Of a stretch of DNA of 48,852 nucleotides, positions 35,765 through 42,442 are shown in pieces. Each line of letters opens with the position of its first letter. The first letter of the stretch is position 1. Under the pieces are notes generated by a model that made no database searches, was not told where the DNA came from, and saw nothing but the letters and a program-made list of their open reading frames with translations. The translations under genes were made by a program, and so were the position numbers. Source of the DNA: an uncultured Alphaproteobacteria bacterium (GTDB lineage: Bacteria; Pseudomonadota; Alphaproteobacteria; Bin95); contig CALLKY010000073.1 in assembly GCA_938083135.1 (NCBI GenBank), positions 1-48,852 of the forward strand, given 5' to 3'.

Positions 35765-36829
35765 CTAGACCATCGCCACCGCATTGGCCGGACTACCGAC
35801 TGCGCCTGGCAGGCGGAGCGGCTGGCAGGTCGCGAAGAAGCGCGTGCGGTTATTGGCTTTCAGCCAGTGCGCCAGCTCGGTGAGGTACCACATCTCCCCC
35901 AATGGCACGCCGAGTTTAAACAGGCAGTGCTGATGCAGTGGGCTGTTCGCGTAAGTCTTGCCAGGTGCCGGACGGGCGGGTGACTGCTCGACCGCATAAT
36001 TATCCGCGATCATGGCGACGACGCCTGAATCCGTGATCCAGTTCAGCAGCTTGTCGTCACGCCCGTCCAGTGTGGCGCAGGTTTGGTGCATTTTCTCATG
36101 GGTCGGGTTCTTGCCACACTCCAAGATGACGTCCGCGAACCCGGTATAGAGGAACATCAGGTCACCCTCTTCCGGCGCAACCTTCTGATCTTCCATCGCC
36201 TGCATGAACACATCATATCCGACGACCTTACGCTCGCGCCCGATCACATCGAACAGGTTCAGCAGATTGCCGCGCCCAACAACGCCATGCTCTGCCATGG
36301 TTTCGATGCCAAGTTTGCGGGCACCGATGCCCTCTTCACGCGGTTCTTGGCTGCCATCTTTGGCGTAATCAACGGTACCGATAATGTCTTTGCCGCCTTC
36401 AAAGCCGTTGTAGTAGCGAATTTCTGGCACGCCATCGCCATCTGCATCAAACAGCTGGCCCATATGGCAGAACGCATCCCACTGGGAAGAATACTGCAAC
36501 GTCATCGTCACGCGGTCATCGCAGCCGACATCAATATGCGCCGGGTTATCCATACGGAGCGGATAATTGTAGCGGGGCGTACCGCTTGTTGCATCTATCG
36601 TCGGCTCAAGCTTTGGCGGCAGGCGGCGCGGGTTCAGCACATTTCCGCCCGGATAATCCAGCGGCAAGGAAAGGCAGAAGCGTTCACCCGTTTGAATTTC
36701 TTTTGCGGCACGGAGAACCCGTTCCGGTGTCAAAAGGTTCATCCGGCCAAGTTGATCATCCGGCCCCCAATCGCCCCAAGTTGAGCCTTCGGGGCGATGT
36801 TTCCAGCGCGGGTTTGCGGGTGCGTTCAT
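35765..36829 (-). CDS. cyclase-family (kynurenine formamidase-like) hydrolase
   Basis: 354 residues from the ATG at 36829, chosen because GAGGAAA lies just upstream and relatives begin near this point; an upstream ATG at 36889 adds 20 residues. QYSSQWDAFCHMGQLFD near 112-128 holds the Q-W-D-x-x-x-H metal motif of the PF04199 cyclase family, and HGVVGRGNLLNL is the second block. Members include formamidases and isatin hydrolases, which cut C-N bonds with a bound metal; the substrate is not known. It is divergent from the nitronate monooxygenase gene across 77 bases. Confidence 0.87.
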   Translation of the reverse strand: MNAPANPRWKHRPEGSTWGDWGPDDQLGRMNLLTPERVLRAAKEIQTGERFCLSLPLDYPGGNVLNPRRLPPKLEPTIDATSGTPRYNYPLRMDNPAHIDVGCDDRVTMTLQYSSQWDAFCHMGQLFDADGDGVPEIRYYNGFEGGKDIIGTVDYAKDGSQEPREEGIGARKLGIETMAEHGVVGRGNLLNLFDVIGRERKVVGYDVFMQAMEDQKVAPEEGDLMFLYTGFADVILECGKNPTHEKMHQTCATLDGRDDKLLNWITDSGVVAMIADNYAVEQSPARPAPGKTYANSPLHQHCLFKLGVPLGEMWYLTELAHWLKANNRTRFFATCQPLRLPGAVGSPANAVAMV

Positions 36830-36906
36830 CACTGTTTCCTCTTGCGTTTTTAGGTATGCAGGACCAAGCATGGCCCAACAAACGCTCACCTGAAAGGCCC
36901 AATGCC

Positions 36907-37869
36907 ATGCCGTTCGATACCGCCCTTACCCGCATGCTTGGAATTGACATTCCAGTTATCTCCGCGCCCATGGCTGGCGTCGCTGGCGGCAAACTGGCCG
37001 CGGCAGTTACGGGCGGCGGCGGCCTTGGCTTGATCGGCGGCGGCTATCCGGACCCGGCTGTGATCGAGCATGAATTTGGTGAGGCAGGCAACGCCGTGGT
37101 CGGTATTGGCTTCATCACTTGGGCCCTGGCCAAAAACCCAGCTGCATTGGATGTCGCCCTGGCCCATAGCCCAAAGGCGATATTTCTATCATTCGCTGAT
37201 ATTGCGCCCTTCGTCGCCCAAGCAAAGTCATCTGGTGCCACGTTGATTGCCCAGGTCCAGACCGTTGGCCAAGCGCGCGCCGTGGCGGACGCAGGCGCGG
37301 ATATGATCGTGGCCCAGGGGACTGAAGCCGGCGGACATGGTGCGGCCAGAGCAACGCTTCCGCTGGTGCCAGCCGTGGTCGATGCCGTTGGGTCCATACC
37401 CGTGCTGGCTGGCGGTGGGATTGCAGACGGGCGCGGATTGGCGGCAGCCTTGGCGCTCGGTGCTGCCGGTGCCTTAGTGGGCTCCGCCTTTGTCGCCGCA
37501 GAGGAATCGCTTGCAAGTGCCAATGGCAAACAGCGGCTCGCGACCGGGTCCGGTGATGATACGGCTAAGGGGTCAGAATTTGATCTACTGCGCGGAATTG
37601 ATTGGCCAGATGGCTATCAGATTCGCACCATGGATACGCCATTCTTCAAGAGCCTCCGTGATGCACCGCCAAGCACAGATGCTGAGGTTCAGGCAGCAAA
37701 AGCTGCATTCGATGCAGCCCGTGAAAAAGATGATATGTCCGTTGCGACCGTCATCGCGGGCGAGGCAGCTGACATGATCAACGCCATTGAGCCGGCATCG
37801 GCTATTTTGCAGAGAATGGCGAACGAGGCGGAAGCGATTCTCCGCTCCCGCCCCGGCTTATCCGATTAG
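36907..37869 (+). CDS. nitronate monooxygenase family protein
   Basis: FMN-dependent TIM-barrel enzyme (NMO/2-nitropropane dioxygenase family). N-terminal LGIDIPVISAPMAGVAGG, then GGGGLGLIGGGY and the FMN phosphate region AQGTEAGGHGAARATLPLVPAVVDA and VLAGGGIADGRGLAAALALGA. 320 residues. I start at the ATG at 36907, after GAAAGG, which gives the family N-terminus; the frame is open from 36586 on the cyclase strand region without similarity. A related activity is enoyl reduction (FabK), but the G-T-E-A-G-G-H motif is shared, so the substrate remains open. Confidence 0.9.
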   Translation: MPFDTALTRMLGIDIPVISAPMAGVAGGKLAAAVTGGGGLGLIGGGYPDPAVIEHEFGEAGNAVVGIGFITWALAKNPAALDVALAHSPKAIFLSFADIAPFVAQAKSSGATLIAQVQTVGQARAVADAGADMIVAQGTEAGGHGAARATLPLVPAVVDAVGSIPVLAGGGIADGRGLAAALALGAAGALVGSAFVAAEESLASANGKQRLATGSGDDTAKGSEFDLLRGIDWPDGYQIRTMDTPFFKSLRDAPPSTDAEVQAAKAAFDAAREKDDMSVATVIAGEAADMINAIEPASAILQRMANEAEAILRSRPGLSD

Positions 37870-37881
37870 GCTTTCAGCCTA
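37867..37881. terminator. hairpin carrying both stop codons of a convergent gene pair
   Basis: taggct-ttc-agccta is a perfect 6-bp inverted repeat with a 3-base loop. Its left TAG is the stop of the nitronate monooxygenase gene, and its right CTA is the complement of the TAG of the His-rich protein gene. It is short and lacks a T run, so any termination role is weak. Confidence 0.3.
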
Positions 37882-38520
37882 GTTCCGCCAGGCAGTGTAA
37901 CCATCGCCACGCTGACGACGTGGGCGTTCAGCCACAGTATTCCGCCGGTTATCAACGCGATTATATCGGCGGTCAGTCTGCGCACGCGCGCGGCGGCGGT
38001 CTAATTCATTTTTGGCGCGGGCGCGGCGGCGATCCAGTTCGTCTTGAGCGCGTTCACGACGGCGATCAAGGTCATCCTGGGCCCGCGCACGACGGCGGTC
38101 CAGTTCATCCTGCGCCCGTGCACGGCGACGATCCAATTGATCTTGAGCCCGCGCACGACGGCGGTCATTGCTGGAATAGCCACTCCGGTGATGAGAGCCT
38201 GGGTTTATATAATCCCGGCGCACTGTATGGCCCCGGTAGGCATGGTTTCTGCCACCCCGATGGCCGCGATTGTAGTGACCATGCTTGTGAGATTTCCGCT
38301 TGTAGTAGCCATTATGGCCATGGTGGCGGCGTTTCGGTGCGCGATGGGCGTGATGACCATCGTCATGGGTGGCGGCGATAATCAGGCCGCCGATGGCCGC
38401 ACCAATAATGATTGGCCCGATCAAGTCTTTGCCGTCAGCTTTAGCGCTGCCAGCCCCAACGACGCTTGATGCGCCCAGCACGAGCGCCGCGATTGCGGTG
38501 GTGAAGGTTCGTTTCAGCAA
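37879..38520 (-). CDS. secreted His/Arg-rich protein with 11-residue repeats
   Basis: 213 residues, family not recognised. Signal peptide 1-29 (TAIAALVLGASSVVGAGSAKA), then a Gly/Ile-rich hydrophobic stretch (LIGPIIIGAAIGGLIIAA, about 33-50) that may hold it in a membrane. A His-rich basic region follows (about 52-112, over a dozen His; possible metal binding). Next come six tandem 11-mers, DRRRARAQDEL with small changes (119-184), and an Arg-rich tail. Eleven-residue periodicity fits a long, salt-bridged helix or coiled coil. Start codon is TTG at 38520 after GGGAGAG. Single gene with its own leader hairpin and candidate promoter. Confidence 0.75.
   Translation of the reverse strand: MLKRTFTTAIAALVLGASSVVGAGSAKADGKDLIGPIIIGAAIGGLIIAATHDDGHHAHRAPKRRHHGHNGYYKRKSHKHGHYNRGHRGGRNHAYRGHTVRRDYINPGSHHRSGYSSNDRRRARAQDQLDRRRARAQDELDRRRARAQDDLDRRRERAQDELDRRRARAKNELDRRRARAQTDRRYNRVDNRRNTVAERPRRQRGDGYTAWRN
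37969..38166 (-). repeat. 33-bp tandem repeat, six units, in frame
   Basis: Six back-to-back 33-base units encode the 11-mer DRRR(A/E)RAQD(E/Q/D)L; the fifth has KNEL and the last ends in TDR. The DNA copies differ at synonymous and a few coding positions, so this is an aged array and not an assembly echo. Loss or gain of units would keep the reading frame. Confidence 0.92.
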
Positions 38521-38530
38521 GAGTTCTCTC

Positions 38531-38562
38531 CCGTTTGCGTTTCCCCCCTAGGACACAAACGG
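38531..38562 (-). promoter_or_regulatory. leader hairpin overlapping a ribosome site
   Basis: CCGTTTGcGT (38531-38540) and ACaCAAACGG (38553-38562) form a 10-bp stem with one mismatch around a 12-base loop. On the minus-strand message the stem ends within the GGGAGAG ribosome site of the His-rich protein gene (TTG at 38520). It may restrict ribosome access, perhaps by temperature; that is inference. Confidence 0.4.
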
Positions 38563-38586
38563 CAGTCCATCACTGATCCGTCGCAA

Positions 38587-38595
38587 AATATACCA
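38587..38595 (-). promoter_or_regulatory. candidate extended -10 promoter of the His-rich protein gene
   Basis: Read on the minus strand the sequence is TGgTATATT, a good extended -10 element, about 70 bases upstream of the TTG start and just before the leader hairpin. No convincing -35 box lies 16-18 bases further up, which extended -10 promoters can lack. Confidence 0.4.
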
Positions 38596-38628
38596 CTTGA
38601 TTGAACACAGGTTCGTGAACGTCTCGTT

Positions 38629-39897
38629 TTAAGGCGCGGAGGCCAGCGCGTTCTCAAAGAAATCTGGGCCGCCAAAGTTGCCAGACTTCAGCGCGACCGC
38701 CATTTCTTTCCCGCCAATGCTAACGCACCACGGCACACCTGGATCAATCTCTGGCCCGATCCTGAGCGCGCCGATCTTCAGTTTCTGCACAACCGCACCT
38801 GATGTCTCTCCACCCGCGACGACCATACGCGAGACGCCCATGTCTCTCAGGCCCGCAGCGACGGTCGCCAGTGCGTCTTCCACAAGCGCGCCTGCCTTCT
38901 CCCGGCCAACAGCTTCCTGCGCGGCCTTGACGGCGTCTGGGCTGTCTGTGGCGTAGATCAACACCGGGCCGTCCTCAATCCGGCCCTTGGCCCATTCCAA
39001 TGCCTCCGCCGCTAGGTCCTTGCCTTCTGCAAGCTGCAGTGGGTTGACCTGAAACACAGGATGGTTCCGCGCAAACCGCGCCACCTGTTCATTCGTTGCG
39101 CGGGAGCAACTCCCGGAGATTATAGCCCCTTTGCCGCCAATTTTTGGCAAGTCTGCCGCCGCACCTTGCTGCTTGAACAAGCCCGCAGCCGCAAACGCCG
39201 CTGGCATACCGACCGCAAGACCGGACCCGCCCGTGCTAAGCACTTGGTGAGATGTCGCCGAAGCAAGCGTGCGGAGGTCATCCTCATCCGTCGCATCAGC
39301 AATAACGAGCCTTCGGCCATCGCCTGCCAATGCTGCGAGATGGGCACGCGCTGCATCGGCACCTTTGCGGATCGTCTTGTAATCCAGCAGGCCAACCGGC
39401 GTAGTTGATTGGCGGGCGAGGACACGCACCAAGTTCGGGTCCGTCATTGGGGTTAGTGGATGTTCCTGCATGCCGCTTTCATTCAGCAGCACGTCGCCAG
39501 CATAGAGATAGCCCTTAAAAACGGTCCGGCCGTTCTCTGGAAATGCTGGGCAGGCAATGGCTTGATCGGCGCCGAGTGCATCCAGCAGTGCCTCTGCGAC
39601 CGGGCCGATATTGCCTGTGTCCGTCGAATCAAATGTCGAGCAATATTTGAAATAGAACCGCTGGCACCCGCCCGCCTGCAGCCATTCCAGCGCTTCTAGT
39701 GATTGGGCAATGGCTTCATCCGCTGGGATCGTTCGGGATTTCAGTGCAACAATCACGGCGTCAGCATCAATCTCGCTGGCTGGAATATCAGGAACGCCGA
39801 TGGTCTGCACGGCCCGCATGCCATGGCGGACGAGCATGCCTGCTAAATCTGTGGCACCGGTGAAGTCGTCTGCGATGCAGCCAAGAACGGGGCTCAT
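38629..39897 (-). CDS. otnK: 3-oxo-tetronate kinase OtnK
   Basis: Four-carbon acid sugar kinase (DUF1537 type) that phosphorylates 3-oxo-tetronate at C4 in L-threonate/D-erythronate catabolism. N-terminal GCIADDFTGATDLAG has the D-D-F-T-G-A-T-D substrate motif; the C-terminal half holds the nucleotide site with AGGETSGAVVQKL and SGSCSRATNEQ in between. 422 residues, normal length. It overlaps ltnD by 4 bases, the expected partner. Neither the OtnC aldolase nor the OtnI isomerase follows. Confidence 0.92.
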   Translation of the reverse strand: MSPVLGCIADDFTGATDLAGMLVRHGMRAVQTIGVPDIPASEIDADAVIVALKSRTIPADEAIAQSLEALEWLQAGGCQRFYFKYCSTFDSTDTGNIGPVAEALLDALGADQAIACPAFPENGRTVFKGYLYAGDVLLNESGMQEHPLTPMTDPNLVRVLARQSTTPVGLLDYKTIRKGADAARAHLAALAGDGRRLVIADATDEDDLRTLASATSHQVLSTGGSGLAVGMPAAFAAAGLFKQQGAAADLPKIGGKGAIISGSCSRATNEQVARFARNHPVFQVNPLQLAEGKDLAAEALEWAKGRIEDGPVLIYATDSPDAVKAAQEAVGREKAGALVEDALATVAAGLRDMGVSRMVVAGGETSGAVVQKLKIGALRIGPEIDPGVPWCVSIGGKEMAVALKSGNFGGPDFFENALASAP

Positions 39898-40793
39898 TCG
39901 GAAGTCTCCGTAGTCGGTAGGTCAATGCCGGTTAGCTTCTGGAATACTTTCACAACCGCACTGTCATTCTCACGACCGAGCCCGCCAGCACTGGCAGCTA
40001 GAAACTGCTGATGGGCGGCCGCAGAAAGCGGTAGTGGGAAAGTCATGGATCGGCCTGCATCCAGCACAATGCCAAGGTCTTTGACGAAAATATCAACAGC
40101 ACTTTTCGGCGCATAATCGCCGTCAACAATGCTTTGCCCCCGGTTCTGGAACATCCAGGAGCCGCCTGCAGAGTTGGAAATGACTTCGTATACCGTTTCC
40201 AAATCCGCCCCGGCGCGGGACGCCAATGCGAAGGCTTCCGCCATGGCAGCGATATGCACGCCGGCCAGGAGCTGGTTGATCATTTTGATGGTCGCACCCT
40301 GCCCCGGGGTATCGCCGATCTTGTAGACTTTCTCCGCAATCGCATCGAGTAACGCGCCGCCTTTTTGGAACGCAGCGCCAGAACCCGCAGCCATAATCGT
40401 CATAGACCCAGCCATGGCCTTGGCCGCACCGCCGGATACGGGCGCATCAATGAACTGCAGCCCAAGCGCTTCGAGCCGAGCCGCAACAGTGGGCGGATAT
40501 TCAGGCGCTGTTGTGGCACCCGCCAGCACGACGGCACCTTTGGGCAGTTTCTCCGCTAAGCCATTCTCACCGAATAGCACGGCTTCAGTTTGGGCCGCGT
40601 TGACGACCAGGATCATCACGGCGTCCAGGTGGCCCATCTCCGCGACGGAGCTGACAGCCGTACCGCCAGCAGCCTCAAACGCGGCCCTGGCATCTGCCGA
40701 CAGATCACAGCCGACCGTTTCCAGCCCAGCCCGCACACAGGATTGCGCGGCCCCCATTCCCATAGCCCCAAGCCCGACAATACCAACCCGCAT
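39894..40793 (-). CDS. ltnD: L-threonate dehydrogenase-like oxidoreductase
   Basis: Beta-hydroxyacid dehydrogenase family, NAD-dependent oxidation of L-threonate at C2. Rossmann start VGIVGLGAMGMG, substrate motif DAPVSGGAAKAM near 117-126, and catalytic Lys170 in GATIKMINQLLAGVH. 299 residues. The direct overlap with otnK favours LtnD over 3-hydroxyisobutyrate or tartronate semialdehyde dehydrogenases, which share these motifs. The DUF1028 gene ends 3 bases before its start, so all three genes form one operon. Confidence 0.88.
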   Translation of the reverse strand: MRVGIVGLGAMGMGAAQSCVRAGLETVGCDLSADARAAFEAAGGTAVSSVAEMGHLDAVMILVVNAAQTEAVLFGENGLAEKLPKGAVVLAGATTAPEYPPTVAARLEALGLQFIDAPVSGGAAKAMAGSMTIMAAGSGAAFQKGGALLDAIAEKVYKIGDTPGQGATIKMINQLLAGVHIAAMAEAFALASRAGADLETVYEVISNSAGGSWMFQNRGQSIVDGDYAPKSAVDIFVKDLGIVLDAGRSMTFPLPLSAAAHQQFLAASAGGLGRENDSAVVKVFQKLTGIDLPTTETSE

Positions 40794-40796
40794 AAA

Positions 40797-41516
40797 CTAT
40801 CGCTCCTCACCCAATGCTTTTCTGTATCCAGCCTGATAGGCCTCACGTTCGGCAAGGTCATACACCCCTGCCGGATTATTCCGTGTCGCCAATGTTACGT
40901 AGTATGGTGCCCGCTCCGCTAGGAATGTGTCCAACATGCGGGAAAGCTCCCGGACGGGCTCTGCCGCATCATCAATGCGGAGATCAATCCACGGCCATTG
41001 TTCAGCCTTCACAATTTTGATCGCCGCCGATTGCTTACCGCGCTTATCACCGCCTGCAGTTTCGCCAGCGGCCAGGGCATCCATTAATCGCCGTGCGAAC
41101 GGTTTTTCCCAGCCATCAATCCAGGCCTTCATTGTTTCGGAAACGACGGCTCGCCCGACCAGCATGTTTCCAGCAACAGATACGCCTTCACCCAGCACAT
41201 GGCCATTCCAATCGACGCAGGATGCGCCGGTATAGGCGAATGCATTGCCCTGCGCATCGACACCATGGACTTGGCGGAAGGCGCGGCCTTCATCGGCGGA
41301 TGTCACGGCTCCAATGGCTGCTTCGATGCTGTCGCCAGCAGCCAATCTCGCTAATACATCTGGCCCATAAAGTGGGTTCGTATAGGACTGCGTTGAAAGA
41401 GCGCCGGTGTCAGCTTCAAGCCACGGACAGATAGCACCGACCGCCAGCACCTTCGATGCGACGGCGACCCCGAATGCGCCGCTGGCGGCGTCCTTAGCAA
41501 CAATGGACCATGTCAT
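40797..41516 (-). CDS. DUF1028 protein (putative Ntn-hydrolase fold)
   Basis: 239 residues beginning MTWSIVAKDAASGAFGVAVASKVLAVG, which is the DUF1028 N-terminus. Further family blocks are STQSYTNPLYGPDVLARL and GNMLVG. Thr2 directly after the initiator Met could be an N-terminal nucleophile, as in Ntn hydrolases; this is inference from fold arguments. I start at the ATG at 41516 because family members begin there; an ATG at 41588 would add 24 residues and run into the divergent SDR gene. It is first of the operon with ltnD and otnK, which suggests a link to four-carbon acid sugars, for example hydrolysis of a precursor. Confidence 0.85.
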   Translation of the reverse strand: MTWSIVAKDAASGAFGVAVASKVLAVGAICPWLEADTGALSTQSYTNPLYGPDVLARLAAGDSIEAAIGAVTSADEGRAFRQVHGVDAQGNAFAYTGASCVDWNGHVLGEGVSVAGNMLVGRAVVSETMKAWIDGWEKPFARRLMDALAAGETAGGDKRGKQSAAIKIVKAEQWPWIDLRIDDAAEPVRELSRMLDTFLAERAPYYVTLATRNNPAGVYDLAEREAYQAGYRKALGEER

Positions 41517-41566
41517 TGCCACGGCATACGATGGCGCATCATTCGCTGCAAGCTGGAGCCCGCCCC

Positions 41567-42442
41567 ATGCCACAGAATTTTGGCGCATCTGACGATGATC
41601 TCTTCGAACGCCCCACCATTTATCGGGATGATCTTTTCAAAGGGCAGGTCGTTGTCGTTAGCGGCGGCGGCAGCGGGTTGGGCAAAGCCATGGCCGCGCT
41701 GTTTGGACGCCTGGGCGCGCGGATCGTTATCTGCGGCCGTGATCAAGCGAAGCTAGACGCGGTCAAAACCTTATTCGACGCGCGCGGCATCTCTTGTTCA
41801 ATCCATTCCATGTCCATCAGGGAACCCGAAGCTGTTGATGCCTTCTTCGACCAAGTTTTCGCTGATGAGGGCAAAATCGACATTCTGATCAACAATGCGG
41901 GTGGACAGTTCCCGCAAGATGCCCTGGATTTATCGCCAAATGGCTGGCGCGCCGTTATCGACACGAACCTGAATGGCTCGTGGAACATGATGCAGGCGGC
42001 CGCAAAGCGTTGGCGGGACCGCAGCGCGCCGGGCAATATGATCAATATCGTTGCTGATATCTGGCGTGGCCTGCCGCAAATGGCGCACACAACGGCTGCC
42101 CGTGCTGGCGTGATCTACGCCAGCCGCACAGTTGCGGTTGAATGGGCGCAATATGATATTCGTGTGAATTGCCTGGCACCGGGCTGCTGCGAATCCAGCG
42201 CCTTTGGCCGTTACCCAGCGGAGGGTGCAGAAAGCTTCAAGCAATCGAACCCCATGTTGCGCGCTGGCGATGAATGGGACATCGCGGAAGGTGCCGTTTA
42301 TCTGGCATCGCCGGCAGGAAAATTCATTACCGGCGAAACGCTAACCATTGATGGTGGCCAACAACTTTGGGGCGACCCGTGGCCGGGCGGCAGACCCGCC
42401 TGGGCAGAGCTAGATTATAGCAAAGGCCGCGGCCAGCGCTGA
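41567..42442 (+). CDS. short-chain dehydrogenase lacking the usual Tyr/Lys
   Basis: 291 residues. The Rossmann motif VVSGGGSGLGKA near 30-41 and INNAGG near 108-113 are typical of SDRs. Where the catalytic Y-x-x-x-K normally stands the protein reads AHTTAARAGV (about 173-182): Tyr is replaced by Thr and Lys by Arg. The same H-[TS]-x-A-A-R pattern occurs in 2,4-dienoyl-CoA reductase and AtuG-like SDRs, so it may act on an enoyl- or dienoyl-CoA. The start ATG at 41567 follows CTGGAG with 8-base spacing. It is divergent from the DUF1028 operon, 50 bases apart. Confidence 0.9.
   Translation: MPQNFGASDDDLFERPTIYRDDLFKGQVVVVSGGGSGLGKAMAALFGRLGARIVICGRDQAKLDAVKTLFDARGISCSIHSMSIREPEAVDAFFDQVFADEGKIDILINNAGGQFPQDALDLSPNGWRAVIDTNLNGSWNMMQAAAKRWRDRSAPGNMINIVADIWRGLPQMAHTTAARAGVIYASRTVAVEWAQYDIRVNCLAPGCCESSAFGRYPAEGAESFKQSNPMLRAGDEWDIAEGAVYLASPAGKFITGETLTIDGGQQLWGDPWPGGRPAWAELDYSKGRGQR

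Follow-up and report, generated by a model that had tools for sequence, protein, structure and literature searches.

What kind of protein is encoded by a small gene with six short charged repeats, and where in the cell would such a protein act? The gene lies on a contig of an uncultured alphaproteobacterium, the 48,852 nucleotides of which are here called the window. The initial annotation had described an open reading frame with a signal peptide, a Gly/Ile segment, a His-rich basic region and six 11-residue units, a combination which it did not recognise. These elements are real (the signal peptide as judged by eye), and the encoded protein, P0001, reached the cut-off of no Pfam or NCBIfam model; it appears to be a small charged-repeat protein with a signal peptide that fits no named family. 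The features of the locus are given below; P0003 is the product of the corresponding locus in another genome of the genus, and L006 is a contig carrying a close relative of the gene.

35765..36889, minus strand: putative cyclase gene (PF04199), syntenic marker
36901..37869, plus strand: nitronate monooxygenase-like (NMO-like) gene (PF03060), convergent
37879..38520, minus strand: gene for the 213-aa protein P0001, TTG start, stop at 37879–37881
37882..37968, minus strand: Arg-rich C-terminal tail, residues 185–213, from the translation
37969..38166, minus strand: six 11-residue units, residues 119–184
38167..38367, minus strand: His-rich basic stretch, residues 52–118, from composition count and AlphaFold2
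38368..38424, minus strand: Gly/Ile hydrophobic helix, residues 33–51 (LIGPIIIGAAIGGLIIAAT), glycine-zipper-like
38437..38520, minus strand: putative signal peptide, residues 1–28, AKA/D site, by eye; SAKADG also in P0003
38526..38532, minus strand: Shine-Dalgarno-like GGGAGAG, 5 bases before the TTG; identical in L006
38528..38565, minus strand: inverted repeat, possible mRNA hairpin, overlapping the Shine-Dalgarno-like stretch
38629..39897, minus strand: acid-sugar kinase (PF07005/PF17042), which we take to be OtnK-like; upstream gene, syntenic marker

The gene and its coding evidence

The coordinates of the ORF, 37879–38520, were confirmed exactly, as a minus-strand frame of 213 aa with a TTG start. 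The genus sample comprised five genomes, namely G000, which contains the window, and G001 to G004. The ortholog in G003, P0002, is 93% identical to P0001, and the two genes differ at 14 first, 2 second and 44 third codon positions (dN 0.034, dS 0.375, dN/dS about 0.09). The P0001 gene is under purifying selection. A chance ORF on the wrong strand was rejected, because substitutions in this reading frame fall predominantly at third positions; the longest stretches free of stop codons in the other frames, 154 and 166 codons, are antisense. The parts of the two genes outside the array differ by 23 synonymous and 12 non-synonymous changes (summed over the region rows), none of the latter in residues 29–51. 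Within the array, pS is 0.54 and pN is 0.025, values which depend on the alignment choosing which unit drops out and which would both shift with another choice.

L006 (CAJXVF010000042.1, assigned to an uncultured Alphaproteobacteria bin) and the contig of the G003 ortholog appear to be one and the same, the protein having been matched by eye. One end of this contig (L006:1–48), at the end of a kinase gene fragment, is an assembly leftover, presumably Illumina Nextera adapter sequence. A pattern scan of 37700–38800 found a single promoter-like site, which lies on the plus strand, and no terminator. Short stretches around the possible hairpin before the start were more stable than shuffled sequences in the window (z –3.0) and in L006 (z –4.0), where the candidate at 540–595 has a 13-pair stem; a longer stretch of the window reached only z –1.7. 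The candidate, which could serve in translation control, had no Rfam match at E ≤ 1.

The array of repeats and its predicted fold

The array consists, in order, of DRRRARAQDQL, DRRRARAQDEL, DRRRARAQDDL, DRRRERAQDEL, DRRRARAKNEL and the degenerate DRRRARAQTDR. The six DRRRARAQDEL units described at first are thus six in number, but the exact letters occur in unit 2 only. Tandem Repeats Finder reported the array as three rows with periods of 33, 66 and 99 bases (scores 162, 182 and 233, respectively), and the identity autocorrelation at 11 residues was 0.56 (residues 111–205), a value that no maximum among 2000 residue shuffles matched. Across all pairwise comparisons of the units, the synonymous difference was 0.74 and the non-synonymous difference 0.125 per site; since the units differ mostly at silent sites, the array is old and constrained. 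Unit number was compared in the single close relative, G003, whose ortholog has five units versus six in P0001. By eye, the first 20 bases are identical in units 1 and 3, and unit 2 of G003 resembles a hybrid of units 2 and 3 of the window; shared unit starts and a hybrid-like unit form the pattern which unequal recombination would leave.

These differences between units, together with the tails of G001 and G002 and the absence of the gene from the slot in G004 (see below), would also fit a tail that is a weakly constrained low-complexity spacer, resized by unequal recombination and with little specific binding. The purifying selection on the repeats and the retention of every aligned Arg argue against such a spacer, which we consider unlikely.

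AlphaFold2 predicted helices for residues 2–22, 34–52 (low confidence) and 117–197, with block mean pLDDT values of 62 (residues 111–120), 86–95 (121–180), 77 (181–190) and 59 (191–200). The model as a whole, built from a two-sequence alignment, had a pLDDT of 64.3 and a pTM of 0.31. The long straight helix proposed for the repeats is reproduced by this model, in which the predicted helix 117–197 would extend over about 12 nm (81 residues at 1.5 Å each). Charged repeats are often drawn as helices by AlphaFold2. Single alpha-helix domains are lone helices stabilised by ion pairs. The pairs of P0001 are at the level of permuted units: 29 attractive i to i+3 or i+4 pairs were counted versus a permuted mean of 26.1, and the layout was reached by 0.38 of 5000 permutations (0.66 for P0002).

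The hydrophobic segment, residues 33–51, has a mean Kyte-Doolittle hydropathy of 2.23 over 19 residues and includes GAAIG (GxxxG) at residues 40–44. It is followed by a stretch (residues 52–118) with 15 His, 15 Arg/Lys and 3 Asp/Glu, mostly without predicted structure. The high positive charge seen by the initial annotation is confirmed for residues 52–213, with a net charge of +28 and a pI of 11.7. The mature protein contains no Cys.

Variation within the genus and relation to known families

In the window, the OtnK-like kinase gene is followed by the P0001 gene, the convergent NMO-like gene and the cyclase gene. The cluster at 35765–41588, with DUF1028, dehydrogenase, OtnK-like kinase, NMO-like and cyclase-like genes, is perhaps involved in sugar-acid breakdown. 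Across the five genomes, the slot occupied by P0001 holds a protein with 11-residue repeats in two cases, one with 7-residue repeats in one and one with neither in another; in the fifth genome the gene is absent. The order in G002 is kinase gene, P0003, P0004, NMO and cyclase, the latter two identified by eye. P0003 has 153 residues, counted from an ATG picked by ribosome site and signal peptide within a longer frame, and comprises a putative signal peptide, SAKADG, GPVIVGAAIG and a His/Gly/Tyr/Arg tail that lacks 11-residue repeats (highest autocorrelation 0.23, a value attained in 68 of 2000 shuffles). The adjoining P0004 (L040:3244–3687) is a second small exported-looking protein with a Gly-rich segment; the window's slot contains no second gene of this kind. 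In G001, the contig starts inside the gene for P0005, in which GAAIG is followed by seven-residue Arg/Glu/Tyr repeats (autocorrelation highest at period 7, with a value attained in 3 of 2000 shuffles) and which lies directly before the cyclase gene. In G004, the kinase and cyclase genes are adjacent, 133 bases apart, with no P0001-like gene in the slot, and the N-terminal query had no match in this genome at E ≤ 10. The NMO-like gene is missing from the slot in G001 and G004.

As a single pair, P0003 and P0001 align at 44% over 86 columns (E 2e-9). Genome searches did not return the G001 and G002 relatives at significant E-values: the P0003 query matched G000 only in another place (C110, E 0.10) and not at the window gene; the N-terminal query found P0005 at E 0.114 only, and in G002 it gave a match inside P0004 (E 0.62) and another at C136 (E 0.34) and did not return P0003. 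Homology of P0003 and P0005 to P0001 is proposed from gene position and a short N-terminal match, P0005 being cut by the contig end. The hydrophobic segment is retained in P0001, P0002, P0003 and P0005, and the net charges of their tails are +28, +27, +11 and +6, respectively.

The His-rich stretch had been taken to suggest metal binding. A periplasmic buffer or sensor for Zn, Cu or Ni would be in keeping with 15 His in 67 residues and with the 13, 12 and 8 His in the tails of P0002, P0003 and P0005, but the mature part of the nearest ortholog has lost 3 of these 15 His (12 kept) and gained one (Y72H), as compared to 41 of 41 aligned Arg kept. Moreover, the mature protein lacks Cys, no known transition-metal gene was found among the six neighbours scanned, and Pfam listed just two models for P0001, neither of them a metal family. 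The better retention of Arg than of His would favour charge over a metal site, but in a comparison with 15 substitutions in all it is no more than suggestive. A metal chaperone was rejected, given the less conserved His and the lack of a transition-metal neighbour, and we regard a metal buffer or sensor as very improbable.

Within the searches made, the P0001 type seems to occur in this genus only. The full-length query gave four matches at E ≤ 0.01 among 95 relatives, including G000 and G003; the other two were weak and partial (E 0.0023 and 0.0098), and one of these lay within a frame of 728 codons. Of 305 stretches that matched the pattern in a scan of genome contigs, which may leave out records of the window's own genome, one encodes a relative (L006). 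The plasmid collection contained no relative at E 1e-3. The repeat query, run on 398 genomes of the phylum, returned the window gene and two matches (E 5e-4 and 9e-4) at loci which, by eye, carry long repeat ORFs on the other strand or in another frame. The N-terminal profile A2 matched 62 of 385 genomes of the class at E ≤ 0.1, those of G000 and G002 by construction, as their sequences are in A2. Inspection covered 28 loci (L058–L085) with frames under 400 aa only; by eye, the plan recurs in L059, L061 and L069, and L076 resembles an exported, Gly-rich protein with a different tail. The remaining loci were judged to be chance matches or other proteins. Eight weak matches of the P0005 query in 385 genomes (E 0.003–0.008) were judged noise, from frames under 420 aa. 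Against PHROGs, P0001 had four weak matches with E-values of 0.022 to 0.37 (tape measure, tail, head, unknown), and P0003 and P0005 had none; the best match in the PDB sequence search was at E 0.29. The literature search retrieved no direct account of P0001, and the letters of the repeat occurred in no paper found.

YjdP of E. coli (NF041443, DDRRRQL repeat protein) is the nearest named look-alike, with a similar plan and no detectable homology. Like P0001, it is small, begins with a putative signal peptide and ends in an Arg/Asp-rich tandem repeat in which DRRR occurs; unlike P0001, it has seven-residue repeats and, by eye, neither a Gly/Ile helix nor a His stretch. Membership by repeat type was rejected, since the units of P0001 have 11 residues and not seven, and the alignments with YjdP were not significant (E 33 for P0001, 8.2 for P0005). 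The NF041443 cut-off is 90 bits; P0005 scored 11.1 bits and P0001 was not listed at E ≤ 10, in searches where HMMER filters drop most matches above about E 0.1. Among 14 genomes from the GTDB family, the model exceeded the cut-off in none; among 14 control genomes it gave some signal in six, including E. coli, and exceeded the cut-off in one. A table of a LolCDE-inhibition study gives values for yjdP of 9.52 and 10.62, taken here as fold increases, and the study lists YjdP with function unknown and a putative signal peptide (PMC5105897). The gene also appears among the top 20 repressed genes of an acid-resistance study (PMC5217608), and it has been used as a map landmark (PMC10128022).

Glycine-zipper families (PF13488, PF13441, PF13436, PF05433) have, as does P0001, a Gly-rich GxxxG (GAAIG) helix after the signal peptide. 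Membership was rejected, as the four models were not listed at E ≤ 10 for P0001, P0002, P0003 and P0004. The best weak Pfam match of P0001 is the stalk of ATP synthase subunit b (PF00430), a long charged helix (E 0.14), which also occurs among its PDB matches (E 1.6 and worse); with 12.7 bits versus a cut-off of 28 and only a helical charged composition in common, it was rejected as well. L059, L061 and L069, from alphaproteobacteria of other families, resemble P0001 by eye in a signal peptide, a Gly-rich segment and a charged low-complexity tail, but no 11-residue repeats were seen in them, and their profile E-values per genome were 4.7e-4, 2.6e-3 and 0.012, respectively. L061 matches PF13488 with 30.2 bits (cut-off 25) and is a glycine-zipper protein by Pfam.

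Location and possible role

Tentatively, we favour a reading of P0001 as a cationic helical rod which is exported, anchored to a membrane and bound to an anionic surface of the envelope, a possibility which we hold to be a real one, somewhat short of even. The protein would be exported by Sec and cut after AKA, and the Gly/Ile helix would hold it to the membrane and may pack copies together in the manner of a glycine zipper. The His/Gly/Tyr/Arg stretch would act as a flexible cationic linker, and the 11-residue units would form a single helix with its Arg-rich faces against LPS, peptidoglycan or membrane lipid. The positive charge and the helix as such would count, and the exact sequence less; such a constraint would explain the 11-residue, 7-residue or missing repeats in sister species. 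Export is supported, as far as sequence comparison goes, by the AKA/D site and by the SAKADG shared with the syntenic P0003. By analogy, the partly similar plan of YjdP would count for an envelope protein, as would the 4 and 2 Cys in the C-terminal stretches of L059 and L069, which follow a similar hydrophobic segment. Cys is common in extracytoplasmic domains.

Secretion, as assumed initially, is in keeping with the AKA/D signal peptide seen by eye, but the borderline Gly/Ile segment could leave the tail in the cytoplasm. The signal peptide, cut or not, and residues 33–51 as a stop-transfer helix would then form a membrane hairpin, with a cytoplasmic His/Arg tail that binds nucleic acid or ribosomes or acts as a scaffold near the membrane. 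The insertion energy of residues 33–51 was estimated at +0.11. This is better than the value for the signal peptide (+0.61) and comparable to those of the weaker among the 13 best segments (–0.9 to 2.45) of an antiporter encoded by a neighbouring gene; the same script gave –0.11, a value lower than that of residues 33–51, for a stretch of the NMO-like enzyme, and thus cannot decide the location. The net charge of +28 behind the segment would, by the positive-inside rule, place the tail inside. Against a hairpin stand the Gly-rich, borderline segment with its early Pro, the conservation of AKA/D, and the similar segments of L059 and L069 (–0.17 and +0.76), which precede the Cys-containing stretches. 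A cytoplasmic tail appears rather doubtful to us, and the exported rod is preferred.

A further proposal, that the slot in the genus holds an anchored exported protein which swaps whole repeat tails (11-residue, 7-residue or none) from species to species and keeps its anchor and charge, acting as a cationic rod of adjustable length with unit number tuned to bridge a fixed gap or to cover an anionic surface, is quite improbable. With no named family to fit and a tail that varies between sister species, P0001 gives the impression of a rapidly evolving envelope protein, not of a new kind of machine. If the exported-rod reading is true, it would be a lineage-specific envelope protein with a helical tail rebuilt from different units, and with the constraint on charge, not on sequence. 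P0001 would also offer a sequence-unrelated comparison for YjdP, which the LolCDE-inhibition study lists as function unknown among the responsive genes (PMC5105897).
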